Below, piece after piece: positions 1 to 14,495 of a stretch of 49,372 nucleotides of DNA. The notes below the pieces were generated by a model. It did not search any database, had not been told where the DNA came from, and was given only the letters and a program-made list of their open reading frames with translations. The DNA is from Desulfobacterium sp. (GTDB lineage: Bacteria > Desulfobacterota > Desulfobacteria > Desulfobacterales > Desulfobacteraceae): NCBI GenBank assembly GCA_030145245.1, contig JAQYWC010000009.1, positions 1 to 49,372 of the forward strand, read 5' to 3'. Position 1 is the first letter of the stretch. Every line of letters starts with the position of its first letter. The translations under genes and the position numbers were made by a program.

Positions 1-804
1 CCGGTTTTTATCCTGCCACAGGGGATGGTATGGCAGTAATTGTGTTTTATCTACTTTTTCCTCCTTGTAGAGGGACACAATGGCGGAAAGATTCTCGTTT
101 GTGTCGGTAATATCCGGGATCAGCGGCGTTCTTGGCAGAATCTCCACGCCGCCATCCCGGTATTTCCCATACAGCTTTCTGAAGTTTTCAAGAATTGTTT
201 CATTGGGAAGTCCGCAATGTTTTTTATGATTACCGCTGTCCATGATCTTGATATCAAAATATATCAGATCCACATGGGGATACACAAGCGCATTAAAGGT
301 TTCATAATCGAACTGGCCGCAGGTTTCAAGAAGAACATGAACACCTTTCTCTTTAAGGGCCTTTGCTGCTTCTGCCAGAAACGGCATGTGGCGTGTCGGC
401 TCTCCGCCGGAAAAGGTCACACCGCCTTTGGAGGTGTCAAAAAAGGGCTTGTCCCTGATCACTCGTTCAACAATACCGGAAACGCCCAGGTCCTGGCCCA
501 CCTGCTCCAGGGCCCCGGAAGGACAAGCCTCCACACAGGCAAAGCATAAGTTGCACTGTTTCCTGTCGATAAAAAATGGATTTTCTTTTGAAAGGGCCTT
601 ATTTGCACAGGTTTCCACGCAGGTGTTGCAACCCACACATTCACCGGCATCAAATGAAATCTCAACGGCGGTTTTTTTACTTTCAGGGTTGTGGCACCAG
701 GTGCACGAAAGGGGGCATCCCTTAAAAAAAACAACCGACCGGATTCCCGGACCATCATCCAGGGAGTTGCCCTTTATCTCGAGTATCAATGGATTCTTTT
801 TCAT
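1..804 (-). CDS. Glycyl radical enzyme activase (radical SAM), 3' end cut by window
   Basis: This enzyme should cleave S-adenosylmethionine to place the glycyl radical on the adjacent enzyme. The start ATG at 804 overlaps the stop of the glycyl radical enzyme gene by four bases (ATGA), so the two are translationally coupled. The protein begins MKKNPLILEIKGNSLDDGPG, then shows the radical-SAM CxxxCxxC cluster as GCPLSCTWCHNPE at about residues 30-42. Two ferredoxin-like four-cysteine motifs follow (CVGCNTCVETC, then CNLCFACVEACP), the insert typical of activases of the dehydratase and decarboxylase type of glycyl radical enzyme, and absent from the short pyruvate formate-lyase activase. A GGEPT motif lies further on. 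About 268 codons are visible and no stop is reached before the left edge. Assignment to the family is firm; the partner is inferred from coupling. Confidence 0.93.
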   Translation of the reverse strand, partial: MKKNPLILEIKGNSLDDGPGIRSVVFFKGCPLSCTWCHNPESKKTAVEISFDAGECVGCNTCVETCANKALSKENPFFIDRKQCNLCFACVEACPSGALEQVGQDLGVSGIVERVIRDKPFFDTSKGGVTFSGGEPTRHMPFLAEAAKALKEKGVHVLLETCGQFDYETFNALVYPHVDLIYFDIKIMDSGNHKKHCGLPNETILENFRKLYGKYRDGGVEILPRTPLIPDITDTNENLSAIVSLYKEEKVDKTQLLPYHPLWQDKNR

Positions 805-3767
805 AAACCGTACTCTGTTCTTTCGATCAGTTCCAATTGCATCTCCCTGTTCAGGTGTACAAAATAGGCGTTATATCCGGATATCCGCACAAGAAGGTTT
901 CGATACTTTCCGGGATTGGCCATGGCATCTCTTAACACCTGGGAATTGACCATGTTGAACTGAATCTGCATGCCTCCCTGCTCAAAATAGGATTTTACAT
1001 AGGAATAGAGGGTCTCGACAGTCTTTTCACGTGAATCATTGGCAGAAGGCACCATCTTAACATTAAAGGCGATATTATTATCCATATTCCGGGGATTCAG
1101 CCGGGCAACATCCCGTATATTGTCCAGGAAACTGGCGGAGGCGGAAGGGTGGGGCGTTGCCCCGGGTGTAAACGGTTTACCGGCCATTCTGCCCGAAGGA
1201 AGCGCGCCTGACAATGAACCATAGGCAACATGCTGGGCCACGGACCAGAACCCGACCGTGTAATCTCCTCCACGGAAATTCTTTATTTTTTTATAGGCAT
1301 CATGGATCAGGGATGTCACCCGGTTGGCCATATCAACGGCTTCATCGCTGCCGGAGCCAAACCGGGGCACTTTTTTCATCACCATTGCATGGAGGGCAGG
1401 ATCGTTCTTAAAATCCGTGTCAATGGCATTTTTTAAATCTGAAAAGGTCACCGTCTTTTTGTCATAAACAAGATGCTTAATCACCATCAGGGAATCCACC
1501 ACATCGGAAAGTCCGATGTTAAAAGTCCCGGACGTATTGTAATGTGCCCCTCCCTTTGTGACATCCTGTGCGTTGTCAACGGCACCACGGATGGCAGTGC
1601 TCAGAAGCGGTGTCGGCCGCAGGTATGCATATGCCTCTCCGGCCATATTGTTAAGCCTGGTGGTGTTTTCTATGATAAATTGCTGCTGTTGGGCAAAGGC
1701 GTTAAAAAAATCATCAAAGGTTTTAAAATCACCTTTTTCCGGACGGCCTGTCCGGGGGCCTATATGCCAATCCATCAACGGGTGGTACCCGTTGTTCATG
1801 GCCATTTCCAGGCCTGCCACCATATTGATGGATGTGGCGCCGGTATGGCTCATATGCTTACCGGAAAGGGTGATTTCCACGCATCCTGTGGCGGCCCAGT
1901 CCCGCAGGTCTTCCATATTATCCGAGTTCTGGCCAAAGGATTCGATCACAGCATCGTCACTGTGCATGGAAGGCGTTGCCACGGTAATGAAATTCACTTC
2001 ACATAACCGTTTCAGGTAGGTGTCGCTGTTTACATTAAGCTTGAACCGGGCATTCATGTTCGGGTCATTCAGGGACAGCATTTCCGTGACCTTTAAAAAA
2101 ATGTAAGTCATGTCGTTGACCGCATCTTTGCCGTCAGGGGTCATGCCCCCGATGGTAATGGCGGTTTCAGACTGGCTGCCCCCGAAAAGATAATTGGCCA
2201 CATCAGGCACCAGGTTATGGTGGTCGGCGCTTGCCATGAAAAAACAGGATATCAGTTCAATGGCATGTTCAATATACTCCTTTTTCTCCTGTTCACCGGT
2301 TATCTTTTTCAGGTCACTTTCAAAGTAGGGCTGGAAGAGCTGATCAAGCCGTCCCGGAGAAAGGGATACATTATTGTTTTCCATGAGAAGCCCGATCCAG
2401 GCGATCCAGGCGGCATTCACCGCCTCTTCAAGGGTTCCGGCTGGTTTCGACGGAACATGGCGGCATATTTTTCCGAGCCTTTCCAGCTCTGCCCTGCGTC
2501 TGGGATCACTTTCCGTTTCCGCAAGTTTGCATGCCTGGTCTGCAAGATTGGCGGCATAGGTATCCAGACCTTCCAGGCAGAGGATCATGGCGTGCAGGGT
2601 ATTGATCTTCTCAGTCTCTTCAGCAGGGAGGCTTTTTATTTTGTGCCGGATTTCATCAATCATCTTATCTGTTCCATCCTGAACAAACTTGGGCAGATCC
2701 GGTACGGTGTGGGACATGCAGACGATTTTGAAATTAAAGGATGCAACCGCACGTTCATCGATCTTTTGACAAAGGGGGTAATCATACTTCTCCCGGATCC
2801 ACTCCCGGTTGGTTCGCTTTGTCCAGAAGGGGAAGATATCATGGAGTTCGGCAGCTGTTTTTTTCGTAATTCGGCAGGGGCAAAGAACCCTTTTTTCAAT
2901 GGAATCAAGTTCCCCCCATATCATGGTTCCGGTTGTATCGGGGTAAACAAGAACGCCCTGTTCTTCCGGCGAGCAGGTTCCGGCAAGCAGGGCATCCGGA
3001 CGGATGACCGCTTGTTTGTTTTCCATGAGGTGTTTGAGCGCATGGGCCTGCCGGAGTTCGGGAAACCATGGGTTGCCGTCATTGTCCTGCTCAAAGCCGT
3101 TTTCTCTGTACCATTCGGTCAGGAGTACGGCTCTTTCGGAAGAGATTTCAGGGGTTGCGGCAAAATGTTTTTCATGGAGTCTTTTTATCCGGGGAAAGTC
3201 TTCCAGGCCATACCGGGACAGGTAGGGATCATCAAGGTGCCTTACCCCCGGATCTTCTTTTTTTCCTTTCATGCGGTAGCTTTTTCTTTTCGCAAGCTCC
3301 GTTGACAATTGAGGCGTGTTTTCGGGGAATTCCTTTTTCCTTGAACGTTCATCCCGTTTTTTCGCCCTGTTCAGCATTTGTTGATGCACGCCGCCCATAA
3401 TAAGAGAGATGTAGTAATTGAACGCCTGCAGGTAGCTCATATTCCCATATAGAATGATTTTATTCTTTAAAACCAGGTTCAGCATCTCATTGGGGGTGAT
3501 CCGGACAACTTCCTTCAAGACCCGGTCATCCACAAAATGCATGATGGCATCGGTCTTTTCCGGAATATGGTTTAAAACCGTAACCCGTCCGTCAGCAAAT
3601 ACAATGGCCTGGTTTACGTTTCCAGACGCGGTTCTCAGCCCGATGGTAAAATTTGTCCACCCGTCACGGCTTTTCATGGATTTTTTTAATGAAGGCCGGA
3701 GGTTAAACTGGACGGCCATCATCCGCAGGGCAAAATGAGTTAATCCATTCAGTAAATCAATTTTCAT
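801..3767 (-). CDS. Glycyl radical enzyme with N-terminal SCP2-like domain
   Basis: A 988-residue fusion. Residues 1-140 look like a sterol carrier protein 2 (SCP2) lipid-binding domain, including the typical end with a hydrophobic segment, a KIILYGN turn and a following helix. After a basic linker (about 140-165) comes a full glycyl radical enzyme. The catalytic cysteine is Cys629 in ATGCVE, and the radical-bearing glycine is Gly964 in RISGYNAYF, 24 residues from the C-terminus. The cysteine-valine-glutamate motif is the one known from glycerol and diol dehydratases, choline lyase and related C-X lyases, unlike the paired cysteines of pyruvate formate-lyase. Family members are usually about 780-860 residues, so the N-terminal domain is extra. 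A strong AAGGAGG lies eight bases before the ATG. It sits 15 bp after the TetR gene. The substrate is unknown; the lipid-binding domain hints at a hydrophobic or acyl substrate. Confidence 0.92.
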   Translation of the reverse strand: MKIDLLNGLTHFALRMMAVQFNLRPSLKKSMKSRDGWTNFTIGLRTASGNVNQAIVFADGRVTVLNHIPEKTDAIMHFVDDRVLKEVVRITPNEMLNLVLKNKIILYGNMSYLQAFNYYISLIMGGVHQQMLNRAKKRDERSRKKEFPENTPQLSTELAKRKSYRMKGKKEDPGVRHLDDPYLSRYGLEDFPRIKRLHEKHFAATPEISSERAVLLTEWYRENGFEQDNDGNPWFPELRQAHALKHLMENKQAVIRPDALLAGTCSPEEQGVLVYPDTTGTMIWGELDSIEKRVLCPCRITKKTAAELHDIFPFWTKRTNREWIREKYDYPLCQKIDERAVASFNFKIVCMSHTVPDLPKFVQDGTDKMIDEIRHKIKSLPAEETEKINTLHAMILCLEGLDTYAANLADQACKLAETESDPRRRAELERLGKICRHVPSKPAGTLEEAVNAAWIAWIGLLMENNNVSLSPGRLDQLFQPYFESDLKKITGEQEKKEYIEHAIELISCFFMASADHHNLVPDVANYLFGGSQSETAITIGGMTPDGKDAVNDMTYIFLKVTEMLSLNDPNMNARFKLNVNSDTYLKRLCEVNFITVATPSMHSDDAVIESFGQNSDNMEDLRDWAATGCVEITLSGKHMSHTGATSINMVAGLEMAMNNGYHPLMDWHIGPRTGRPEKGDFKTFDDFFNAFAQQQQFIIENTTRLNNMAGEAYAYLRPTPLLSTAIRGAVDNAQDVTKGGAHYNTSGTFNIGLSDVVDSLMVIKHLVYDKKTVTFSDLKNAIDTDFKNDPALHAMVMKKVPRFGSGSDEAVDMANRVTSLIHDAYKKIKNFRGGDYTVGFWSVAQHVAYGSLSGALPSGRMAGKPFTPGATPHPSASASFLDNIRDVARLNPRNMDNNIAFNVKMVPSANDSREKTVETLYSYVKSYFEQGGMQIQFNMVNSQVLRDAMANPGKYRNLLVRISGYNAYFVHLNREMQLELIERTEYGL

Positions 3768-3782
3768 TACACCAGCCTCCTT

Positions 3783-4442
3783 TTAACGGTTTGTTTGGGT
3801 CTTATAAAACGGGAGCATCAATTCCTCACACATTCTGTCAATTAATTTGTCCGGTACTATTTCATCCAGCTCCAGTAAAATGTTCCTGTTGTTCAGGGTG
3901 ACGATTCCGTGGAGGGTGATCCAAATCTGATAGGCCCTGAATTCAATATCCTTTTCCGGAATGGCATCATTGCCATCTGCAATTCGTTCCATGATCTTCA
4001 GGGGGACTGCGATTGCTTTAACGGCCATCTGTTTCGCCTCAAGGGCGACAGGTTCGATTTTCTTGTTTTGATCCTTGTATTCCAGGTACCTGGGCGTATC
4101 GCTGTTCAGCATTATCTGATAGTAATCCGGGTTGTTGAACCCGAATTCCAGATAGGTCCGGATCATTTTTCCCAGGGATTCAAGGGGATTCTTTTTCGAT
4201 ATGCCGATTCCTTCAAGGCTGGTTTGCAGAAGCTTGAACCCTTTTATCTGAATGTTCAGGTAGATTTCATCCTTGCTGGAATAGTAATAGTATATATTGG
4301 TTGCCGACATCCCCACCCGGAGGGCTAATTTCCTCAGACTCATATTGTTAAAGCCCGCTTCAAGGATCAATTTCATGGCTTCCTCAATGATATTGTCCTT
4401 TACTCTTTCAATCTCTTCAGGAGATCTTGTTTTTCTGGCCAT
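3783..4442 (-). CDS. TetR-family repressor of the glycyl radical operon
   Basis: A 219-residue TetR-type regulator starting MARKTRSPEEIERVKDNI. The N-terminal helix-turn-helix is clear around residues 25-60 (MSLRKLALRVGMSATNIYYY), followed by an all-helical ligand-binding C-terminal part. The open frame extends to an upstream ATG at 4475, but that codon lies inside a perfect inverted repeat, so I prefer the ATG at 4442, which has AAAAGG about 12 bases upstream. The gene is first in a three-gene unit with the SCP2-glycyl radical enzyme and its activase. Autoregulation and control of the operon are inferred from the operator over the promoter. The inducer is unknown and is probably related to the enzyme's substrate. 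Confidence 0.9.
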   Translation of the reverse strand: MARKTRSPEEIERVKDNIIEEAMKLILEAGFNNMSLRKLALRVGMSATNIYYYYSSKDEIYLNIQIKGFKLLQTSLEGIGISKKNPLESLGKMIRTYLEFGFNNPDYYQIMLNSDTPRYLEYKDQNKKIEPVALEAKQMAVKAIAVPLKIMERIADGNDAIPEKDIEFRAYQIWITLHGIVTLNNRNILLELDEIVPDKLIDRMCEELMLPFYKTQTNR

Positions 4443-4466
4443 GGCGTATCTTAACCTTTTATATAA

Positions 4467-4524
4467 AATTAACATAACACTGTTCTGATAATTATTAATA
4501 GAACAGTGTTATGTTAATTGTCAA
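4467..4524 (-). promoter_or_regulatory. Promoter covered by a perfect 20-bp inverted repeat (TetR operator)
   Basis: On the minus strand TTGACA (4524-4519) and TATTAA (4500-4495) are spaced by 18 bases and form a plausible sigma-70 promoter. Two 20-bp arms, 4467-4486 and 4500-4519, are exact reverse complements around a 13-base AT-rich loop. Each arm also holds a smaller AACA-N6-TGTT palindrome, the size of a typical TetR dimer site, so there may be two operators. One fills the -35/-10 spacer and the other lies just downstream of the -10 box. That position predicts repression. Binding by the neighbouring TetR protein is inferred. Confidence 0.8.
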
Positions 4525-4643
4525 TGCAAAAGTACGGATACCATGGGTGCGGCCTGAAAAAAATGTCCGGGTGGCCGTTGATATTCTCAAGGAGATTAAG
4601 CCCCGATGCTTCAGAGTGAAGCAGGGTTAACATGATTACGGCT

Positions 4644-4683
4644 CCCTTCCGCCTATGGCGCAATATACCATCCGGCGGAAGGG
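4644..4683. terminator. Hairpin downstream of the first TonB receptor gene
   Basis: A perfect 10-bp stem (CCCTTCCGCC / GGCGGAAGGG) with a 20-base loop. On the plus strand it is followed by AATTTTTTAA, and on the minus strand the same A/T run precedes it. It lies 27 bases after the stop of the TonB receptor. It probably ends that minus-strand transcript, although the run of T is on the plus-strand side, so efficiency in the needed direction is uncertain. Confidence 0.5.
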
Positions 4684-4709
4684 AATTTTTTAATTCAATC
4701 CTTTAGCTG

Positions 4710-6797
4710 TTAATAATCGATGGAAAATGATGCGTAAAGACTCAATGGAAGACTTGGGGAGTAGCTGGTGTTTCCACCCCAGTAGCTCTCAGTCGCCGGA
4801 TACTTTTCGTCAAAGATATTGAGGATGTCAAGGGAAAGCCTGTATTTGCGTTTGCTGCCAAAGCGGTAAAAGATATTGGCATCCACCTTATCCCATGACT
4901 CTCCCGTTACCGTATTTGCCTGATTCAGCTCTGCTCCGGATTCGTAATGATATCTGACCCATCCGCCAAAACCTTCCGGTGCATTATAACCGAGTTCTAT
5001 GTTTGTAATATTTTTTGGAACCCTTGGAAGGTCATTGCCGTCATATGACACACCACCTGACGAGTAGCTGTCATATTGTGCATCAATATAAGCGTAGTCA
5101 CCATGCAGATAACCATGGTCAAATGCGTAAAAATCAAGCGATAACTCCATTCCGTCCCGGGTGGTTTCTCCTGCATTTGCATAGTCAAGAGAGACGGGAT
5201 CTTGTATGAAATCATCTTTTGTTTCTACCCGAAAGCCGATAACCTGGGCACTGATCCAGTTTAAAGGCGTTGTTCTTATTCCCAGTTCATATTGAGTTCT
5301 TATTTGCGGATCCCAGTTGTCTTGGGTGTACTGTGTCTGTTCGGCAAAACCGGACATTATGGCAAATCCACGGCCGTAATTTCCAAAGATCTCCAGGCGG
5401 TCATCCAGCAAACTCAGCAACAAACCGCCTTTGGGGCTGAAAATATTAACATCTTTCATGGAAAATTTCTGATCATCCAGAAGATGGTCTGTCAATTTCC
5501 CTGAGAAGCGGTCGTAACGCGCCCCAACAATGAGCTTAAGGGGCTCGGCCAACTGGTAACTAATGTCCGTATATACGCCAAGGGACTCGAAATCAATTTG
5601 ATAATCAATATATTGATCGCCTTTCTCCCTGCCATTACCGGCTGTCAGTCTCCACCTGTCCCTTTCTATATCTTCTGTCATGTGGTCCACTCCCACTGTG
5701 AACCGCAATTCTCTGTCCCGGAGTTCGCCTATAAAGTTGTAACTGAGCCCGGCTCCATGCACCAGGCGGTCAAAATCGCGTAAATTACCGATGTTCGTAC
5801 CCGTTGGAACCCCATCCTCACGACCGGCATAATATCTTTTAAAATTCTGGTCATATCCCCAAAGCTGGAACAGTATCTTGGACTCATTATTAATCCGGTA
5901 GTCTATATCGATTTTTCCGGAAACCCGGTCTTTACTGCCTCCGTTTGCGTCATTTACGGACTTTGTCGGGTCATTCTCATATTCCTCTTGATTCAGCCAT
6001 CCGGGTGCGTCCCAATCTGAATTGAACCCCCGGAGGCTGAGCCTGGCATCCAGAACATCTGAAAAATGATGGGTGATTCGAGTGGCAGCATTTAGTTTGT
6101 CCCAGTTCGAGTTGTCCTGATACCCGTCCGTATGATAGTTCTGGAAGGAATAAACATGATCCCATTTTTCATCTTCGGTCGAGAACCCGCCCACGTAATT
6201 TCCTTCATAGGTATTGTTGGCTCCATATTGTAATTTGACATGCTGGTCCTCTACCTTATTAACCGTATAATAGTGAAGGACACCGGCTGAGGCAAAATTT
6301 CCGTAAAGGGGAGAAACAGGTCCCTTAATCAATTCAACCCTTTCCAACTCCTCGGGATTTACAATATTGGTGTCGGCATAACCGTCGCCTTCATTAAGCG
6401 GGATGCCATCCATATAAATTGCCACATCAGAACCGTGGGAACAGCTGGTGAAGCCCCGCATCTGAAAAGATGCGGCAGTCCCTCCCTGCTTGTACTGTTT
6501 AACCGATACACCCGGAGCTAGCGCTACAATTTCCAGCGGTGTTTCATAAACCCGGTTGGTGATCATCTCATTTGTCAGTATCGTAGCAGAGGTGGCTTCA
6601 AGATTTTTATGGCTGACGTCGCCACGGATGACCACATCGTCGAGTTTTATTATTTCAGGATGTTTTTTTACGGTGTTTTTTTTTACTGTTTCCCCGGCCA
6701 GGATCGTTTCATCTTTATGTGATTCCTGTGAATATGCCTGGACGGAGACAAACAGGATTAACACCAGGAACAACAATAATACTTTGCAATATTTCAA
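4710..6797 (-). CDS. TonB-dependent outer-membrane receptor
   Basis: A 695-residue TonB-dependent receptor with an N-terminal signal peptide (hydrophobic stretch to about residue 20, then AYSQ). A TonB-box-like DDVVIRGD lies near residue 52. The plug domain follows (TPLEIVALAPGVSVKQ; YMDGIPLNEG; VELIKGPVSPLYGN), then a long beta-barrel ending in an aromatic residue (SFSIDY), as required for barrel insertion. It is the second gene of a pair with a DUF4198 protein, 53 bp apart. The family imports iron chelates, B12, nickel or cobalt chelates and some sugars. The DUF4198 neighbour favours a metal ligand. No TonB, ExbB or ExbD gene is in the window. Confidence 0.9.
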   Translation of the reverse strand: MKYCKVLLLFLVLILFVSVQAYSQESHKDETILAGETVKKNTVKKHPEIIKLDDVVIRGDVSHKNLEATSATILTNEMITNRVYETPLEIVALAPGVSVKQYKQGGTAASFQMRGFTSCSHGSDVAIYMDGIPLNEGDGYADTNIVNPEELERVELIKGPVSPLYGNFASAGVLHYYTVNKVEDQHVKLQYGANNTYEGNYVGGFSTEDEKWDHVYSFQNYHTDGYQDNSNWDKLNAATRITHHFSDVLDARLSLRGFNSDWDAPGWLNQEEYENDPTKSVNDANGGSKDRVSGKIDIDYRINNESKILFQLWGYDQNFKRYYAGREDGVPTGTNIGNLRDFDRLVHGAGLSYNFIGELRDRELRFTVGVDHMTEDIERDRWRLTAGNGREKGDQYIDYQIDFESLGVYTDISYQLAEPLKLIVGARYDRFSGKLTDHLLDDQKFSMKDVNIFSPKGGLLLSLLDDRLEIFGNYGRGFAIMSGFAEQTQYTQDNWDPQIRTQYELGIRTTPLNWISAQVIGFRVETKDDFIQDPVSLDYANAGETTRDGMELSLDFYAFDHGYLHGDYAYIDAQYDSYSSGGVSYDGNDLPRVPKNITNIELGYNAPEGFGGWVRYHYESGAELNQANTVTGESWDKVDANIFYRFGSKRKYRLSLDILNIFDEKYPATESYWGGNTSYSPSLPLSLYASFSIDY

Positions 6798-6850
6798 TTT
6801 TGCTCTCCTTAATCCATCATCATGTTTACCCTGACAACCTCATTTTTTTC

Positions 6851-7642
6851 CTATTTGATCTCAAAAGTCATTGTGGCTGAAAATTTCTGGTCGTCACACT
6901 CTTCCGGGTCCGGATAATCCTCCATGTGCGACGTCTTTATCAGCCAAAGTCCTGATACGAGCATCTTTATTTTTGCCCTGCCGTCATTGTCCGTTTTTGT
7001 GGCATAGGCAAAGGTGTTCTTTTCCGAAGAGAACCCCATGTATGTGGCATTTATCTGGCAGGAAGGGAGGGGGGCACCCTTCAGCAATACCCTGATCGGA
7101 AGGAAATCTCCCTGTTTTAATGTCCCGGGATCTGCCAGGGGGATGATCTCGAGTTCATGATTGAGTGCCTTTGAAAATGCTGAACCAGCAGCTTCGCCCA
7201 CGTTGATGATGGCTTTTGAATATTTTGCGTAATATCCGCAACGAATTACATTGCTGAGCCCTTTTTTTGTCTGGCCCCTTTTGTATCCTTCCGTGGTCTT
7301 GGTGAAAAAACCGCCTTTCCTTTTGGCCGATATTACATATGTTCCTGCCTCTTTCAGGGGGGTGTCCGCTTTAATTTCCACGTCTGAAAAGGCTTTGAAA
7401 TTAATTTTTTCACCGTTCTTATTGCGGATGTATATTTCTTCCAGATCGTCAGGATTCATAAAACCGCGGGTTGGAAAATAGTGATCGTAGGCAATCGTCA
7501 GGCTAATGTCCTCACCCTTGGCCGGGGTGTAATCCCTCACATCTAACCACATGTCATGGGCCATGACAGGGTGGCAGGTTAAGGCAAAAACTGTTGTCAT
7601 AGACAAAATTAACGCAAACATTGTTTTTAGAAATTTTTTCAT
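6851..7642 (-). CDS. DUF4198-family periplasmic protein (NikK-like)
   Basis: A 263-residue exported protein. A signal peptide of about 28 residues ends at VMA, so the mature protein would begin HDMWLDV. An N-terminal histidine after cleavage is a feature of NikK-type DUF4198 proteins linked to nickel and cobalt uptake. The rest fits an immunoglobulin-like beta fold, with LTIAYDHYFPTRGF near the start and a carboxypeptidase-regulatory-like second half. AAGGAGA stands at a normal distance before the ATG. The gene precedes the TonB receptor in the same direction, which suggests a metal uptake pair. The metal is not shown by the sequence. Family call good, role inferred. Confidence 0.8.
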   Translation of the reverse strand: MKKFLKTMFALILSMTTVFALTCHPVMAHDMWLDVRDYTPAKGEDISLTIAYDHYFPTRGFMNPDDLEEIYIRNKNGEKINFKAFSDVEIKADTPLKEAGTYVISAKRKGGFFTKTTEGYKRGQTKKGLSNVIRCGYYAKYSKAIINVGEAAGSAFSKALNHELEIIPLADPGTLKQGDFLPIRVLLKGAPLPSCQINATYMGFSSEKNTFAYATKTDNDGRAKIKMLVSGLWLIKTSHMEDYPDPEECDDQKFSATMTFEIK

Positions 7643-7808
7643 CTTCTATCTCTCCTTTGCTGTTGGAAATCTTTATTCCATCATCTTTTTAGTTAGAAGC
7701 AAAAACTCTGGTGGTGTAAGCTCAAGATGAAAAAAGGTCGAATTGACAAAAAGAGAAAACAATGGCATTCCTATGTAACGACCTTCCTTATCCCGAGGAG
7801 GGTTCAAT

Positions 7809-7853
7809 GGGAAGGCGGCTTCAGGACACTGGCCGGTGTTCGCTGCCTTCCCT
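7809..7853 (+). ncRNA. Structured RNA candidate (long stem-loop with G-U pairs on plus strand)
   Basis: GGGAAGGCGGC pairs with GCTGCCTTCCC over 11 positions, enclosing ACACTGG and CCGGTGT that pair again. The two imperfect positions are G-U wobbles when read as plus-strand RNA and A-C mismatches on the minus strand, so a plus-strand RNA is better paired. The hairpin at 7929-7981 downstream could end such an RNA. It does not match any riboswitch class I know. A leader element for the minus-strand metal-uptake operon remains an alternative. Confidence 0.3.
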
Positions 7854-7928
7854 ATCCCTGATTTGTTTTTTTTTATCACCTCCCTTATTCGTTTTTTAAC
7901 CCGACTCTGCAAAAGATCTGAAAACAAA

Positions 7929-7981
7929 AAAAGCCACGAAAACACCTCATCCGTTCCCGGATGACCGCCTTCGTGGCTTTT
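7929..7981. terminator. Bidirectional terminator-like hairpin
   Basis: AAAAGCCACGAA (7929-7940) pairs exactly with TTCGTGGCTTTT (7970-7981). The 29-base loop contains a second perfect hairpin, CATCCG-TTCC-CGGATG. T runs follow the stem in both directions, so it can stop transcription either way. It may separate the minus-strand DUF4198 operon from plus-strand transcription toward hisC. Confidence 0.6.
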
Positions 7982-8290
7982 ATAGACTTGTTACACATTT
8001 ACCTGGACAACTACAAGCAGTTTCTACTGCAAAATTGTTAAATCGGAACTAGATATACGAAGTTTTAAAATAACTGTCAATACCTAAGATAGTAACGAGT
8101 TTTTCTCTCGTTTTCATTCGTAACCGATTGATCGGACAGTGTCGGTCTGCCCTCTGCGGCATGTGAAATCGACACCTGCAGTTATCGGGTTCTCTACATT
8201 AATTAATGGCAAAGTATAAGGGGGGTATGGTATGACTCAGTGGAAAAAGTAAGAGGATAAATTAAAAATAAACGATTTGATGAGGTCATC

Positions 8291-9349
8291 ATGTTTTCGG
8301 AAAGAATGAAAAACCTGTCTCCCTATGTTCCCGGTGAACAGCCTCGAAACAGGAAATTTGTCAAGCTCAACACCAATGAAAACCCCTATCCCCCTTCTCC
8401 CGACGTCCAGGAATTGCTCAAGGGATTTGATGCCGGGAAACTGAGGCTCTACCCGGACCCCCTGTTCACGGACCTGCGCCAGGTGATCGCAGACCGGTAC
8501 CACATCGACCCAAAGCAGGTGTTTGTGGGCAACGGCTCGGACGAGGTTTTGGCTTTTGCATTTTACGCCTTCTTCGACAGCATTAACGGGGACCTTCTTT
8601 TTCCGGAACACACCTACAGCTTCTACCCGGTCTACTGCGACTTCCATGGCATCAACTACAAGAAGCTCCCGTTAAAAGGTGATTTTTCCATCGATCTTTC
8701 AGGGTTTCTGGCATCCGGCAAGACCAGCGGGGTTATCTTTCCCAACCCGAATGCCCCCACCGGTATGCTGATTGAACTGGCCGCGATCGAAGAACTCATG
8801 GAAAAACTTCCCAAGGACCGGGTGGTGTTGATCGACGAGGCGTACATCGATTTCGGGGGGGAGAGCGCCGTTTCCCTGATTGGCCGGTTCAAGAACCTCC
8901 TGGTGGTGAAGACCTATTCCAAGAGTCTGTCCCTTGCGGGGATCCGCATCGGGTTTGCCATGGGGGATGAAAAGCTCATCGACGCCCTGTTTGCGGTGAA
9001 AGACTCCTTCAACTCCTACCCGGCGGATGTCCTGTCCCTCGCCATCGCGGAAATCGCCATGAAGGATGTGGCGTATTATGACGGCATCACCGAAAGGATT
9101 ATCAAAAGCCGGGAAACACTGACCCGTGAACTTGCGGCCCTGGGGTGGGAGGTCCTTCCCTCAAAGGCCAATTTCGTGTTTGCCAGGAAAGAGGGACTGG
9201 ATGGCCGGGAGATCTATGATCGGTTGAGAGAAGAGGGATTCCTGGTGCGGCATTTCAACACCGACGGGATCCGTGATTTTGTCCGGATCACCATCGGAAC
9301 CGAGGAGATGACCGAAGGGCTGACGAGAAAGATCAAGGAAATTTTTTAA
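8291..9349 (+). CDS. hisC: Histidinol-phosphate aminotransferase
   Basis: A 352-residue class I/II PLP-dependent aminotransferase of the HisC type, converting imidazole-acetol phosphate and glutamate to histidinol phosphate in histidine synthesis. It begins MFSERMKNLSPYVPGEQP and shows the HisC signature LNTNENPYPPSP, then NGSDEVLAF, NPNAPTG and DEAYIDF. The PLP-binding lysine is Lys211 in KTYSKSLSLAG, with the phosphate-binding GIRIGFA following. Length is normal for the family. GAGG lies six bases before the ATG. It stands away from other his genes. The next gene begins only 37 bp downstream and may be co-transcribed. A related aromatic or tyrosine aminotransferase activity cannot be excluded. 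Confidence 0.9.
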   Translation: MFSERMKNLSPYVPGEQPRNRKFVKLNTNENPYPPSPDVQELLKGFDAGKLRLYPDPLFTDLRQVIADRYHIDPKQVFVGNGSDEVLAFAFYAFFDSINGDLLFPEHTYSFYPVYCDFHGINYKKLPLKGDFSIDLSGFLASGKTSGVIFPNPNAPTGMLIELAAIEELMEKLPKDRVVLIDEAYIDFGGESAVSLIGRFKNLLVVKTYSKSLSLAGIRIGFAMGDEKLIDALFAVKDSFNSYPADVLSLAIAEIAMKDVAYYDGITERIIKSRETLTRELAALGWEVLPSKANFVFARKEGLDGREIYDRLREEGFLVRHFNTDGIRDFVRITIGTEEMTEGLTRKIKEIF

Positions 9350-9386
9350 AACCAATAGCAAAACCTGTTCGGCTTGGGAGAAGCGG

Positions 9387-10850
9387 ATGCCTCTGGAACA
9401 GAAAAAGCAATACAACCCCATTATTGTGGGATTTTCGGGAGAAGACGGCCCTTTAAGCATATCGCTGAAGAACGCCCAGGAGCGGTTCGGACGGCTTCCC
9501 AGCTCCTACGGCCTGGTGCCCCCCAAGGAGGGAAGGGAGAGGAAAAAGGGTCTCAACCTCGAGGCGGGGAAGTTTATCCGGGATGTGCTGAAACACGGGG
9601 ATAAAAACCTGAAAGGGGCTGTGATTCAGTATTTTAAGGGCTGGCACCGGGACCTGTCTTCGGAGTTCGGGATAAATATCGACCCGTTTCTGAACATAAA
9701 CGATCCGCACAGGGTTCTTGAGGTCATCCGGCAAAACCGTCCCCTGATTAAAAAAATCCTCCGGATGGACTTGAAAGCCAGCCTGCTGGAAAAGGGACTG
9801 ATCTTGAAAGATGTCCTGAACTCCATCAAGGAGGAGAACCTGGCCGAAGCCGTATACCGGATCCTCACCAAAAAGATCCGGCAGTTTACGAGGGATACGA
9901 AAAAGAGGGAGGCCCAGGAGATCCTGGATTGTCTCCATGCAAGGGAGCTCCTCAACCGACTTGAGACCCTTGTCCACGGCAGCCTTTTGGAACCTGAAAA
10001 CACCCGGCTTTCCAGCTATGCAGACGAAGCGGCAAAACTTTTTTTGGGCATGCCCGAAAGAATCGGCTTTACAGGAACAGAGACACTTCTCGGCATCACG
10101 GGGGCCGGCATCGAGTTTGAATTTGCCACCCGGGATATCTCCTATTTGAAGCTCGGGAAAGATACCGGGGACTGTACATCGGACAAGAAGAATTTCCAGG
10201 CGGACACGGGGATCGAAAACATTTTCTGGACCGTGTTTTCCTGGATCCTGGACCGGAACTACCAGATTTTGAAGGTGTATTACCATGGGGAGTTTGTGAT
10301 GAAGGTCCATCTTCTTCCCCTCTACATCACCGACATGGCATCCCCGGTCCCGTGGAACAGTGCCTGCACCCCCGGCCGGAGCGACTACATGATCCTGGCC
10401 GTGGACGCGGTGGAAACCATCCGGGGATTCCGGGACGACATCCCCGGGTACGGCAGGGAAGATCTTCTTTCAGTCAAGGATGAGGTTTTCGGGAAAACCC
10501 TGGAGAAAATAGCTGAAATTGCAGGGCGCATGGGGATTGACCACATCTATGGGGAGAAATTTTCCAATACCCGCTGGGTTCGGGAGTATTACGACACCTT
10601 TCCCGAAATTTTCCTCCACGTGAATCACATTGAAAAGATCGACCAGCTGGAGGATATTTTCTACCTGGCCCGTAGCATCTGCCGGGGTTCCGGTTACGAC
10701 CTCCCTGACGATCTGTTCATGGAGATCCAGATGAAAAACACCTATCTGTCCCCCAAAATCATCAACAAGGCCCCGGGGGTCAAGTCGTTTTCCGTCATAA
10801 AAGGAAATCCCTCAAACGGCATCCCCATGAATCGGGTGATCGGAATTTGA
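9387..10850 (+). CDS. Protein of unknown function (487 aa)
   Basis: I do not recognise this family. The ATG at 9387 follows hisC by 37 bp in the same direction. The protein is soluble: no signal peptide and no membrane segment are visible. The first 40 residues resemble a linker (GFSGEDGPLSI). The middle (about 80-220) is rich in charged helices. A central block around 225-320 is more hydrophobic and carries LGKDTGDCTSDKK, followed by a strand-rich stretch (FSWILDRNYQILKVYYHGEF). The Gly-Asp-Cys-Thr segment followed by a conserved-looking beta core recalls small domains with a conserved cysteine, but no catalytic triad can be named. Codon use is like hisC, so this appears to be a resident gene. 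Function not assigned. Confidence 0.75.
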   Translation: MPLEQKKQYNPIIVGFSGEDGPLSISLKNAQERFGRLPSSYGLVPPKEGRERKKGLNLEAGKFIRDVLKHGDKNLKGAVIQYFKGWHRDLSSEFGINIDPFLNINDPHRVLEVIRQNRPLIKKILRMDLKASLLEKGLILKDVLNSIKEENLAEAVYRILTKKIRQFTRDTKKREAQEILDCLHARELLNRLETLVHGSLLEPENTRLSSYADEAAKLFLGMPERIGFTGTETLLGITGAGIEFEFATRDISYLKLGKDTGDCTSDKKNFQADTGIENIFWTVFSWILDRNYQILKVYYHGEFVMKVHLLPLYITDMASPVPWNSACTPGRSDYMILAVDAVETIRGFRDDIPGYGREDLLSVKDEVFGKTLEKIAEIAGRMGIDHIYGEKFSNTRWVREYYDTFPEIFLHVNHIEKIDQLEDIFYLARSICRGSGYDLPDDLFMEIQMKNTYLSPKIINKAPGVKSFSVIKGNPSNGIPMNRVIGI

Positions 10851-10895
10851 CATCCTCCCCTCCCTGAACCGGATGCGGCAGGTGTATGGAGATTG

Positions 10896-12008
10896 CTACC
10901 GGGGGTAAATCTTTGAACAGATTGGAAGGATCTCACCAATATCCATTATTTTAAACCGGGCTGGATCAAGCCTGTTTCTGTTTATGTGGCGGATCAGGTC
11001 CAGGCCCGGATAGCCGGCAGGCTCGCTGCCGAGATGGAAGGTTCCCCACTGGGTCGGAATAAAGAAGCGGGCACCAAGGTCTTCAAACCCTTTGACCGCT
11101 TCGGGAATATTCATGTGCTGGTGATGCATGAACCACCTGGGGTGGTAGGCCGTGGTGGCCATGAACGCATAATCAATGGGTGGATATTTTTGCCGGATCT
11201 CCATGAACCCCTTGAAATATCCCGAATCCCCGCCGAAATAAAGGGTCGCCGTGGGGGTGACAAGCAGCCAGGAGGCCCAAAGGGAGCGGTTCCTTCCCTG
11301 GTTGATTCTTAAGGACCAGTGCTGGGCCGGAAGGCAGATCAGTTTTGAATCATTCCCGGTTTCGATCTCTTCCCACCAGTCCATTTCATGGACATTGTTC
11401 TTGTTCATGGCCATGACATAGTTTTTAAGGCCTTTGGGAACAAATACGGTTGCATTTTCGGGCAGGTTTTTCATGGTGGACCGGTCCAGATGGTCATAAT
11501 GATTGTGGGAAATCACAATATTGACCTCTTTGACAAGTTCATTGAACGCCTTTAAGGACAGGGCAGGGGGCGTCTGCCTCGATATCACCAGGGCGCGATT
11601 GGAAAAAATGGGGTCTGTCATCCAGTATGTGCCGTTAATACGGATCAAAAAGGTGTTGTGACCGATCCAGAGGATGAAATCGCCCCTGGTCTGTGCAACT
11701 CTTCTTGCCGTGTCGGGAATCACCCTTGGGAGAAATGTTTTTTCCGGGTCAGTGTAGTCTGTTTTTGAAAATAGTTTCCAGCCCAGCACATCCAGAAAGC
11801 TTTTGTCTGCCATTTTCATCCAGGGGCTGAAAAATCTTCCGTCTCTGTAATGGGGCGCGTGGAGATCCCCACGCCGGGTCTCCTCTATCCTCCTGGCCCA
11901 CGTTAACTCTGAGAAAATGTCTTTGTCCCTGGATGAACAGGATGATAACAGCGGCATGATAAACACTGTAAGGCCAATAAAAAACCAGAGGCGATGGAAC
12001 GTCATCAT
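10896..12008 (-). CDS. Metallo-beta-lactamase-fold lipoprotein (RomA/NAPE-PLD-like)
   Basis: A protein of about 370 residues, starting MMTFHRLWFFIGLTVFIMPL, with the lipobox-like LLSSCSS at about residues 19-25, so probably a lipoprotein. The frame extends 13 codons upstream, but those codons run into the end of the preceding gene, and the later start puts the signal peptide at the N-terminus. The metallo-beta-lactamase zinc motif HNHYDHLD is intact, followed by PAQHWSLR, FGGDSGYFKGF and a C-terminal HHQHMNIPEA, as in the UlaG/RomA/NAPE-PLD group, which includes phosphodiesterases of lipid or cyclic phosphate substrates. It ends a run of minus-strand genes and starts about 10 bp after the CBS protein gene. 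It converges with the unknown gene at 10850. Substrate unknown. Confidence 0.85.
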   Translation of the reverse strand: MMTFHRLWFFIGLTVFIMPLLSSCSSRDKDIFSELTWARRIEETRRGDLHAPHYRDGRFFSPWMKMADKSFLDVLGWKLFSKTDYTDPEKTFLPRVIPDTARRVAQTRGDFILWIGHNTFLIRINGTYWMTDPIFSNRALVISRQTPPALSLKAFNELVKEVNIVISHNHYDHLDRSTMKNLPENATVFVPKGLKNYVMAMNKNNVHEMDWWEEIETGNDSKLICLPAQHWSLRINQGRNRSLWASWLLVTPTATLYFGGDSGYFKGFMEIRQKYPPIDYAFMATTAYHPRWFMHHQHMNIPEAVKGFEDLGARFFIPTQWGTFHLGSEPAGYPGLDLIRHINRNRLDPARFKIMDIGEILPICSKIYPR

Positions 12009-12776: not shown

Positions 12777-14495
12777 CTACACCTTGAATTTACCCATCAT
12801 CTGTTTAAGATGATCCGCCAGACCGAACAGTTCATTTGAATTGCTGTCCAGCTGGGAACTGCTGGCTGACATTTCATCTGCGGAACTGTTAACATCTGCA
12901 ATGTCCCTGGCGATCTCTTCGGCAACCGTGGAACTCTGCGCAACGTTTTCATTTACCTCCTCAATTCCCAGGGAAGCCTGGGCAACATTTTCCGAGATCT
13001 CCTTTGTTGTAACGGATTGTTCCTCAATGGCGGCGGAGATCGTGGCCACACTTTTATTTACATCCTCGATAATCAGCGAAATCTTTTTGATTTCGGAAAC
13101 GCTCTCCTGGGTCGCACCCTGGATGCCGCCGACCCTGCCTTTGATTTCAAGGGTGGCTTCGGCAGTCTGTTTGGCAAGCTCCTTGATTTCATTGGCAACT
13201 ACGGCAAACCCTTTTCCGGCCTCCCCGGCCCGGGCCGCCTCAATGGTGGCGTTCAGGGCAAGGAGATTGGTCTGTTCCGAAATATCGGTAATAGCCTCGG
13301 TGACTTTGGTTATCTCCGTGGCAGCCTTGCCAAGTTCGTTAATCCTGTCCAGGGCTTTACCCGCCTGGCCTACCGCTTCTTCAGTTACGGCGCTTGCTTT
13401 TTCCGAATTTCGCAGTATTTCATCGATCGTACCTGCCATCTCCTCTGTTGACGCCGTCACCACGTTAACATTGGTGGAAGCCTGCTCGCTTGCTGCTGCC
13501 ACGGAACTCATATTGGCACTCATCTCCTCTGCTGCCGCAGCAACCGCATTTGATTTGCCGGATAAGCCGTCCGCCCCTTTGGATATGTTTTTCGAAATTT
13601 CCGATAGGTCCCTGGAAGAGGTGCTCACGTTTTCGGCGCTTCCTGCAACCTCTCCGATGATCCCCTGGAGTTTCTCAATAAAACGGTTAAACCATTTTGC
13701 TAATTCTCCCAACTCGTCTTTTCTGTTGGCATGGAGTCGCTTGGTGAGGTCTCCTTCACCCTCGGCAATATCCCTGATCATGGCAACGGTTTTTTTGATG
13801 GGACCGATAACGATGAGCTGCAGGCACAGAACGATTGTCGTGATCAATGCGGCAACGATGCATATTGTCACAACAACCTGGATGGATATGGCTTTTTCTA
13901 TGCTTTCACCGGCGATATTGCGAAAGTTCAGGATCTCCTGTTCGGTCAACTCCTTTTTCTGCCGGACCTCGTCGGCAAGCAATTTGTCGGTATAATAAAC
14001 TTGGACAATACCGACCTGTTCCTTTTCGTGGTAGGAGGGGGATTTGAAAGATAATTTTTCATCAAGGGCGATACTGGCAGGAATCTTTTCCCCTGTTATG
14101 ATTTCCGGGGTTTTCCATGCTGCGGCAAAGGGTCCATCGTCTGCATCCATGACCTGTATGGCCTGGATGCTAGGCAGTTTCATGAAGGTTTTCAAAAGCG
14201 CATTCAGGCGGTCTGAATCAAAATTGTAGAGAAACGATTCCGATATGCCGCCGCATATTTCAGAATTGATTTTTGTTCTGCCGGCAAGGGATACTCTCTG
14301 ATTCTCTGAATACGATTCAAGAGCTTTTTCTTGCATCTGAACATAATTTTCGATCATAACCCTGGAAAGGTTTGATTCAAGTCTTATGAAAACAAGGCTG
14401 CTGCCGGTCAGAAGAATAAGGATAACAACACTTGTGATCAAAGATGTTTTCAGTGAAATTCCTAATTTTATGCGATTTAAGATATTGTTTTCCAT
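12777..14495 (-). CDS. Methyl-accepting chemotaxis protein
   Basis: A 572-residue inner-membrane chemoreceptor. Transmembrane segment 1 is at about residues 19-37 and segment 2 at 204-230, giving a periplasmic sensor of about 165 residues. A HAMP domain follows ([20 protein letters not shown] onward, 231-283). The cytoplasmic coiled-coil ends with the conserved signalling tip [20 protein letters not shown] and [11 protein letters not shown]. No C-terminal CheR-tether pentapeptide is seen. The sensor is of the double-helical or Cache-like size but I cannot name its ligand. The solute-binding protein encoded just upstream on the same strand may deliver the ligand. No che genes are in the window. 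Confidence 0.93.

Follow-up and report, generated by a model that had tools for sequence, protein, structure and literature searches.

A glycyl radical enzyme with an SCP2-like domain hints at an undescribed way for anaerobic bacteria to process fatty molecules

The B12-independent glycerol dehydratase (GD, 1r8w; E 1.8e-48) and the glycyl radical 1,2-propanediol dehydratase (5i2g) are the best Foldseek matches to the full-length model of the glycyl radical enzyme (GRE) described here. They have its active-site Cys-x-Glu and His, as read by eye, but are only about 29% identical to it and match no SCP2 domain. Another close relative is trans-4-hydroxy-L-proline dehydratase (HypD), which differs in having Asp at a position that in our family is mostly Ala, Val or Thr. 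Benzylsuccinate synthase and 4-hydroxyphenylacetate decarboxylase are GREs that likewise have a small partner protein of their own; there the partners are small iron-sulfur-type subunits, whereas here the partner is an SCP2 domain that is often fused. The SCP2 domain of UbiJ and the SCP2-like domains of the alkylsulfatases SdsA1 and Pisa1 have the same fold as our N-terminal domain at 10-21% identity, but are not joined to radical enzymes. Still, alkylsulfatases show that an SCP2-like domain can be fused to an enzyme with alkyl-chain substrates. In the open-licence literature we found no description of a GRE joined to an SCP2 or other lipid-carrier domain, and published accounts of limonene and benzene activation concern other enzymes.

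The window (the whole stretch of 49,372 nucleotides from Desulfobacterium sp. that was analysed) carries such a fusion gene at one end, together with an activase, a regulator and two candidate operators (Table 1).

Table 1. Positions of the SCP2-GRE gene, its domains and its neighbours in the window
Feature	Position	Strand	Details and evidence
GRE activase (radical SAM), truncated at the contig end	1..804	-	268 aa; TIGR02494 275 bits, cut-off 174
SCP2-GRE fusion gene	801..3767	-	988 aa; ORF, Pfam, family alignment
GRE catalytic domain, residues 192-988	804..3194	-	Pfam, alignment, full model
Gly964 codon	876-878	-	within GRE catalytic domain
Cys629 codon	1881-1883	-	within GRE catalytic domain
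SCP2 domain, residues 1-150	3318..3767	-	PF02036 in family members; AlphaFold2 model; Foldseek
TetR regulator	3783..4475	-	PF00440, PF13305; likely true start ATG at 4442
Candidate operator copy 2	4469..4491	.	one mismatch to TTAANNNAACRSYGTTNNNTTAA
Candidate operator copy 1	4495..4517	.	perfect match to TTAANNNAACRSYGTTNNNTTAA

Pfam assigns residues 192-850 of the protein to PFL-like (1.2e-162) and residues 867-970 to Gly_radical (1.4e-22), with Gly964 standing in the loop motif RISGYN. Together with the family alignment, these domains bear out the intact Cys629 and Gly964 motifs reported in the initial annotation. The hallmarks of the GRE superfamily are all present: a PFL-like barrel, the active-site Cys, a C-terminal glycyl loop and an adjoining radical-SAM activase. 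The supposed distance from described GREs also held up, as the catalytic domain scores below every NCBIfam equivalog cut-off (HypD, CutC, HpsG, HpfG, PRK09983, IAD, HPAD and PFL). HypD is the best-scoring equivalog, yet its 430 bits are far under the cut-off of 1100; the scores are 388 for HpsG (cut-off 1000), 368 for CutC (1050), 342 for HpfG (1000) and 339 for PRK09983 (1109). The subfamily model TIGR01774 yields 477 bits against a cut-off of 678.

Every family member aligned has Cys629 and Glu631 (66/66, comprising 51 fused and 15 split GREs), and His353 is found in 62 of the 66 (15/15 split and 47/51 fused, being absent from four of the latter). Cys-x-Glu also occurs in all 16 other GREs aligned and His at the position of His353 in 10 of these 16, so the motifs do not single out dehydratases. 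In GRE eliminases and dehydratases, a His at that position acts on the leaving hydroxyl. The HypD-like fragment of the same genome has His there, like the SCP2-GREs; both CutC copies of that genome have Asp, and HpsG has Gln. Two residues of GD, which we take to be numbered His281 and Asp447, are replaced in the family: 45 of 51 fused GREs have Ala, Val or Thr in place of the first, and the second is Gly or Asn, the latter still polar. The structural matches of the full-length model are headed by glycerol, propanediol and hydroxyproline dehydratases; the model is of low confidence at residues 335-350, 520-533, 843-877 and 962-988. His353 and these nearest solved structures are consistent with a predicted dehydratase.

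Carriers of the family include records named Desulfosudis oleivorans and Oleiphilus, genera with hydrocarbon degraders. This would suit a fumarate-adding, hydrocarbon-activating GRE akin to alkyl- or benzylsuccinate synthase, to which the SCP2 domain would feed alkanes or terpenes. However, MasD and TutD score under the eliminases in two comparisons, far below them by sequence, which is not the kinship of a benzyl- or alkylsuccinate synthase alpha subunit. Among the 50 structural matches listed they also stand below all but one CutC chain. We therefore disfavour a fumarate-adding enzyme and regard it as highly improbable. One structure, 8iof, is named benzylsuccinate synthase in two comparisons and titled a hydroxyproline-type dehydratase in the list of structural matches.

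As for the N-terminus, residues 1-150 have an SCP2 fold in an AlphaFold2 model (m2c0c53ba4f87, mean pLDDT 86.8). The top Foldseek match in the PDB is UbiJ-SCP2 (E 2.5e-6), and all 28 PDB matches at E<=0.001 are SCP2 proteins (including AF1534) or alkylsulfatases/YjcS; we take YjcS to belong to the alkylsulfatase family, the C-terminal domain of which is presumably SCP2-like. By profile the picture is mixed: the window domain itself has no Pfam match, PF02036 included, but 12 of 24 N-domains of the family match PF02036 (SCP2) at E<=1 (best 1.6e-6), against 2 of 24 for each of the next-ranking Pfam families. Three members for which bits are given reach 16.3-19.9, against a gathering score of 21.3. 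A profile built from the 24 N-domains recovers four PDB sequences with E<=1; every one is an SCP2 protein, and the matches are weak (best E 0.097). The relatives and the model together confirm what had been proposed for this gene, namely an SCP2-like N-terminus on a complete GRE. Characterised SCP2 folds bind lipids or acyl chains; nonetheless, an SCP2-like fold alone need not imply that a substrate is carried.

The N-domain is present in all 50 family proteins with an informative N-terminus, the window protein included (two edge-cut rows were excluded, and the HMM was built from 24 members of the same family). The genes of all 15 non-fused sister GREs are immediately followed by an ORF that is SCP2-like. 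A search of 3,917 small ORFs with the HMM of the fused domain recovered fourteen of these ORFs (E 4e-18 to 3e-7), and one was recognised by eye; in a profile-profile comparison the fused N-domain and the split protein match with E 9e-17. A 178-aa cassette protein (L159 10067-10600, L039, and C58 and C15 of the same genome) also looks SCP2-like by eye, and was not counted because no profile supports it. Fused and split GREs form one clade in two trees (SH-aLRT 100). All clade members seen have an SCP2 partner, either fused or adjoining. Of the phylogeny called for in the initial annotation, the tree covered CutC and HpsG; the comparison with HypD, IslA, BssA and propanediol dehydratase was by profile or fold scores only. 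Overall, a fused or split GRE occurs in 30 of 297 genomes of the phylum (E<=1e-200), which is a patchy distribution.

Split loci have the order GRE, SCP2 gene and, where seen (9/11), activase. This order would also suit an SCP2 module that is a structural or regulatory subunit serving docking, dimerisation, membrane tethering or access of the activase to the radical loop, in which case the substrate may be small. The non-carrier roles of known GRE accessory subunits (benzylsuccinate synthase, 4-hydroxyphenylacetate decarboxylase) argue for this, whereas the ligands of characterised SCP2 folds argue against it, as do the enzymes encoded nearby. We judge such a structural or regulatory role rather unlikely.

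These neighbouring enzymes concern aldehydes and alcohols. Aldehyde:ferredoxin oxidoreductase (AOR) is encoded at 8 of 44 fused loci (absent from the other 36) and at 1 of 11 split loci, against 0 of 9 control GRE loci. Five of the eight fused loci with AOR come from two genera of one family; among the eight AORs one is only 24% identical and another 44%. Iron-containing alcohol dehydrogenase (Fe-ADH) is likewise found near some SCP2-GRE loci and near none of the nine controls. Acyl-CoA ligase (6/44 fused loci) and short-chain dehydrogenase/reductase (SDR; 8/44, including weak matches such as one of 82 bits anywhere around the locus) are not clearly enriched over the controls (1/9 each). On inspection, an SDR follows the GRE or activase in L054, L056, L057, L100, L105 and L107.

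Two of these SDRs could point to a different chemistry, in which the GRE would be a lyase cleaving C-N or C-O bonds in the head groups of lipids (sphingoid base, lyso-ether or choline lipids) instead of dehydrating diols. Those of L100 and L057 match 3-ketodihydrosphingosine reductase with 125 and 127 bits, below the cut-off of 400, but other, general SDR models score higher on both. The Cys-x-Glu core is common to CutC, though equally to all the other GREs aligned, and the Asp in place of His353 sets the CutC copies of this genome apart from the SCP2-GREs. Such a lyase seems quite unlikely to us. In L106 the GRE is adjoined by an HpnA-like extended SDR (122 bits, cut-off 368), which, with UbiJ of ubiquinone synthesis as the closest solved SCP2 structure, might suggest a biosynthetic enzyme modifying isoprenoid, quinone or hopanoid lipids. 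A TetR neighbour and the patchy distribution look catabolic, however, and the AOR and Fe-ADH genes close to some of the loci suggest that aldehydes and alcohols are converted. We hold a biosynthetic role to be very unlikely.

The TetR gene of the window probably starts at the inner ATG, because the MARKTRS/MARITRS motif there is also the start in several relatives. Of the 20 partner TetR genes, 19 are preceded by a 23-bp palindrome, and in the 20th (L054) palindromes fall inside an over-long ORF call. This placement fits an autorepressor with its palindrome at its own promoter, and the sequence suggests that TetR would bind there. The reversed-pattern control is not clean: with up to two mismatches the window genome has 8 sites against 6 for the reversed pattern, and with up to one mismatch 25 genomes contain 16 against 5; 11 of the 25 contain no site. 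In G048, an operon that includes AOR and two Fe-ADH genes has a palindrome with one mismatch in front of it. The TonB receptor and DUF4198 protein encoded upstream of the window TetR, with the palindromes downstream of both, were left out of the system, as they occur in no neighbourhood cluster common to at least three loci.

The activase start codon overlaps the GRE stop (ATGA), and since the contig ends inside the activase the end of the operon is not visible. The initial annotation had described a complete, self-contained system with its own repressor and activase. TetR and activase do adjoin the GRE, the latter as a truncated gene, but self-containment did not survive the wider search: the same genome has two further SCP2-GREs at other loci (no activase or TetR within the 20 kb read) and a split locus where the SCP2 and GRE genes have an activase of their own; the enzymes proposed to act downstream of the window GRE are encoded elsewhere.

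Sequence and models directly support the SCP2 fold, the GRE motifs, the fused or split partnership, the conserved palindrome and the gene linkages. From these we infer a lipid substrate and a dehydration, and tentatively prefer, with some way to go before calling it probable, a glycyl radical eliminase that has an SCP2 module dedicated to it and dehydrates a long-chain diol-type lipid to an aldehyde or ketone. TetR would bind the two palindromes fronting the TetR-GRE-activase unit and, judging from one weaker site, might also control another SCP2-GRE pair at a different site of the genome. The Gly964 radical would come from the activase, and the SCP2 module would bind and hold the hydrophobic substrate for the barrel active site. 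There the substrate, a long-chain 1,2-diol-type lipid such as an alkanediol, an alkylglycerol or a monoacylglycerol, would lose hydrogen from its carbinol carbon to the Cys629 thiyl radical, with Glu631 as presumed base and His353 possibly assisting the leaving hydroxyl. The resulting long-chain aldehyde or ketone may be reduced or oxidised by Fe-ADH or SDR; alternatively, AOR could convert the aldehyde to the acid, which after activation by acyl-CoA ligase would enter beta-oxidation. The scheme would parallel propanediol utilisation, with lipids as the substrate. For the family as a whole, it is possible but doubtful that an old GRE clade has an obligate SCP2 carrier, as subunit or fused, that hands over long-chain diol or glycerol-ether lipids for dehydration to aldehydes.

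To our knowledge, the substrates of characterised GREs are either small soluble metabolites or hydrocarbons handled without a carrier, and it is poorly understood how ether, diol and similar lipids are broken down anaerobically. For such breakdown the analysis offers a set of genes together with a likely operator and candidates for the partner enzymes. If the proposal is true, the SCP2-partnered clade would show how glycyl radical chemistry reaches membrane-type molecules, and would give a route by which lipids are degraded anaerobically in marine sediments.

Profile and structure comparisons leave hardly any doubt that the window gene combines an SCP2 domain with a glycyl radical enzyme (GRE). 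Taken alone, the N-terminal domain of the window protein has no Pfam match. When 24 members of the family were scanned singly, 12 matched PF02036 at E<=1 (best E 1.6e-6) and the runner-up Pfam family was matched by 2 of the same 24 domains. An AlphaFold2 model from these 24 domains has a mean pLDDT of 86.8, and all of its 28 PDB matches at E<=0.001 are either SCP2 proteins (UbiJ, AF1534, animal, human and yeast SCP2) or alkylsulfatases/YjcS, whose C-terminal domain is SCP2-like. We therefore assign the domain to SCP2 with high confidence, the window copy being too diverged for a direct profile match.

Coordinates of the SCP2-GRE fusion and of further features at the loci discussed (L, locus; G, genome; C, contig; G000, the window's own genome)
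Feature	Place	Positions	Strand
SCP2-GRE fusion ORF, 988 aa	window	801-3767	-
TonB-dependent receptor	window	4710-6797	-
DUF4198 protein	window	6851-7642	-
HypD-like GRE in two frames (685 + 162 aa)	L052 (G000)	4944-6998 + next ORF (G000:C67:16946-19302)	
Small protein, Fe-ADH, Fe-ADH, AOR set	L166 (G000:C15)	3758-8857	
Fatty-acid-hydroxylase family gene	L035 (Oleiphilus MAG)	12963-14171	
Fused SCP2-GRE frame stopping early	L059 (G027)	7997-11800	
DUF6765 gene	L010	3895-5001	
DUF6765 gene	L095	5900-6973	
DUF6765 gene	L096	11893-12957	
DUF6765 gene	L097	7615-8736	
Alkylsulfatase	L159 (G048)	4564-6351	
PF00884 sulfatase	L039	8093-9694	
Palindrome site	G048:C88	51236	

Pfam places a PFL-like domain at residues 192-850 and a glycine-radical domain at 867-970. 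The residue numbers of the initial annotation, Cys629 and Gly964, are correct: GC(629)VE and RISG(964)YN were both located in the ORF, and Cys629 and Glu631 are invariant across the aligned relatives. The SCP2-GRE gene begins 15 nt downstream of the TetR gene, and an ATGA overlap joins its stop codon to the start codon of the activase. The activase scores 275 bits with TIGR02494, above the cut-off of 174; its gene is cut by the contig end and the operon is visible up to that point. The TonB-dependent receptor and DUF4198 genes directly upstream of the TetR promoter are in no neighbourhood cluster common to at least three SCP2-GRE loci.

No NCBIfam equivalog reaches its cut-off with the GRE of the window. 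Known GRE kinds coexist with it in its own genome, since two CutC and one HpsG were found there above cut-off, together with a HypD-like gene that is a fragment and falls below it (958 vs 1100 bits). A HypD-like GRE of this genome is broken over two frames. After removal of 18 fragments or near-copies from 85 rows, the remaining 67 catalytic domains were placed in a tree. In it the 41 fused proteins form one clade (SH-aLRT 100) with 11 non-fused GREs as sister clade (support 95), and both together (support 100) are separate from CutC, from HpsG and from 12 unlabelled GREs. A second tree (31 rows, mixture model) gives the same three groupings at 100, 99 and 100. The trees lack named sequences of IslA, of benzylsuccinate synthase and of the glycerol, propanediol and hydroxyproline dehydratases, and the long branches flagged among the other GREs make any next sister of the SCP2-GRE clade tentative. 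Judged from these sequences, the catalytic domain forms a clade of its own; the enzyme belongs to the GRE superfamily, but to none of the GRE families that NCBIfam names.

Counting the window protein, 50/50 fused-type proteins whose N-terminus is informative have the SCP2 domain (two rows cut by contig edges omitted; HMM built from 24 members of the same family). All 15 non-fused GREs of the sister clade are followed immediately by an SCP2-like ORF; the window's own genome has one split locus, on contig C58. The fused-domain HMM was run over the collected loci (3,917 stop-to-stop ORFs with lengths of 90-260 aa) and picked up 14 of these 15 ORFs, at distinct places (E 4e-18 to 3e-7); the 15th, in L095, is longer than the 260-aa limit and was identified by eye. 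The sole further match was a truncated copy of a fused gene, and no SCP2-like ORF was detected at CutC, HpsG, HypD-like or other GRE loci, some with flanks of only ~1.5 kb on each side. Split and fused domains match each other in profile-profile comparison (E 9e-17). Fusion in one clade and a neighbouring gene in its sister argue strongly that SCP2 and GRE act jointly, and that their partnership predates the divergence of both clades.

One fused frame, in L059, stops early and is followed by what appears by eye to be a transposase gene; this copy seems interrupted. DUF6765 genes stand beside four split loci (Pfam check on L010, the others assigned by clustering), and the L010 protein resembles zinc phospholipase C very faintly (E 0.07).

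The palindrome TTAANNNAACRSYGTTNNNTTAA marks SCP2-GRE promoters. Its nine-base core is found at 19 of 20 related TetR genes by fused GREs, between 220 nt upstream of the gene and 60 nt into it (the 20 include two genes each in L030 and L031, each pair with one common intergenic region); the background is 95 occurrences in 1.47 Mb of loci, or ~0.065 per kb, counting the sites themselves and overlapping loci. At the 20th gene (L054) palindrome copies lie inside an over-long ORF call. The window has two sites against 0.18 expected, and these alone have at most one mismatch in its whole genome. At two mismatches this genome has eight places vs six for a control pattern, so most of these are due to chance; one is 172 nt upstream of a tandem SCP2-GRE pair on contig C76, where the 20 kb read show no TetR and no activase. 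Sites with at most one mismatch occur in 14 of 25 other fused-GRE genomes (16 in total, vs 5 for the control pattern), 15 of them at TetR-GRE units. The 16th, in G048, shares a contig with the GRE at a distance of ~7 kb and, as a single case, fronts an operon encoding a DJ-1 family protein, AOR (aldehyde:ferredoxin oxidoreductase), a small protein (family unassigned) and two Fe-ADH (iron-type alcohol dehydrogenases), with an alkylsulfatase gene between it and the GRE. Sulfatase-type genes are near SCP2-GRE loci in two lineages (L159 and L039). Both the SCP2-GRE partnership and the predicted TetR control are very probable.

Among 44 fused, 11 split and 9 control GRE loci, whose flank lengths differ so that absences are weak, activase is found in 29, 9 and 5, TetR in 21, 0 and 0, and AOR in 8, 1 and 0 (identity to the query is 24% for one of the eight and 44% for another, and five come from two genera of one family); enrichment is not clear for acyl-CoA ligase (6/44 fused vs 1/9 control) and SDR (8/44 vs 1/9). 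In L103 and L108-L110 the palindrome separates divergently oriented AOR and TetR genes, and in L161 AOR and palindrome are neighbours. The window's own genome has a set made up of the small protein already mentioned, two Fe-ADH and AOR some 5 kb away from its split gene; in L039 such a set is ~3 kb away from the fused gene. The small protein's relatives match no Pfam family. These AOR and Fe-ADH linkages, from few independent lineages, agree with an aldehyde or alcohol product.

A further such set in the window's own genome (L166) has no GRE near. By inspection, an SDR gene follows the GRE or activase in six loci. In L035 a fatty-acid-hydroxylase family gene starts at about the SCP2-GRE end (start codon unsettled), followed by an acetoacetate-decarboxylase family gene.

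SCP2-GREs are distributed patchily: at E<=1e-200, with no more than two candidates per genome scored, 30 of the 297 genomes in the phylum of the window, its own among them, have a fused or split member. Further ones come from records named Gammaproteobacteria (including Oleiphilus) and SAR324, and in a Deltaproteobacteria MAG filed under Myxococcota by the tree tool. In one relatives set 11 of 12 loci are MAG records, the named strain being Desulfoluna limicola (L033, complete genome). The open-licence literature searched for the fusion gave no description of it.

Foldseek of the full model gives glycerol dehydratase (GD), propanediol dehydratase and HypD as top matches. With positions counted by eye, GD Cys433, Glu435 and His164 align with Cys629, Glu631 and His353, and GD His281 and Asp447 with Val467 and Gly643. 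Over the family (three rows omitted) Cys and Glu are present in 66/66 SCP2-GREs and likewise in 16/16 other GREs, His353 in 47/51 fused, 15/15 split and 10/16 other GREs. HypD shares this His, whereas CutC has Asp in both copies and HpsG has Gln. Position 467 is Ala/Val/Thr in 45/51 fused and Met/Val/Leu in 15/15 split members; position 643 is Gly/Asn in 45/51 and Ser/Gly in 15/15. From these residues we infer that the hydroxyl-eliminating core is retained while part of the polar grip on a small diol's far end is altered, as a long-chain substrate could require.

The substrate is more likely than not hydrophobic. Tentatively, the most likely working of the system as a whole is that SCP2 would hold a long-chain, diol-like lipid, from which the radical enzyme would take off water to yield an aldehyde, much as a propanediol-type diol dehydratase does; Fe-ADH, AOR or SDR, together with CoA ligase, would then process the aldehyde further.
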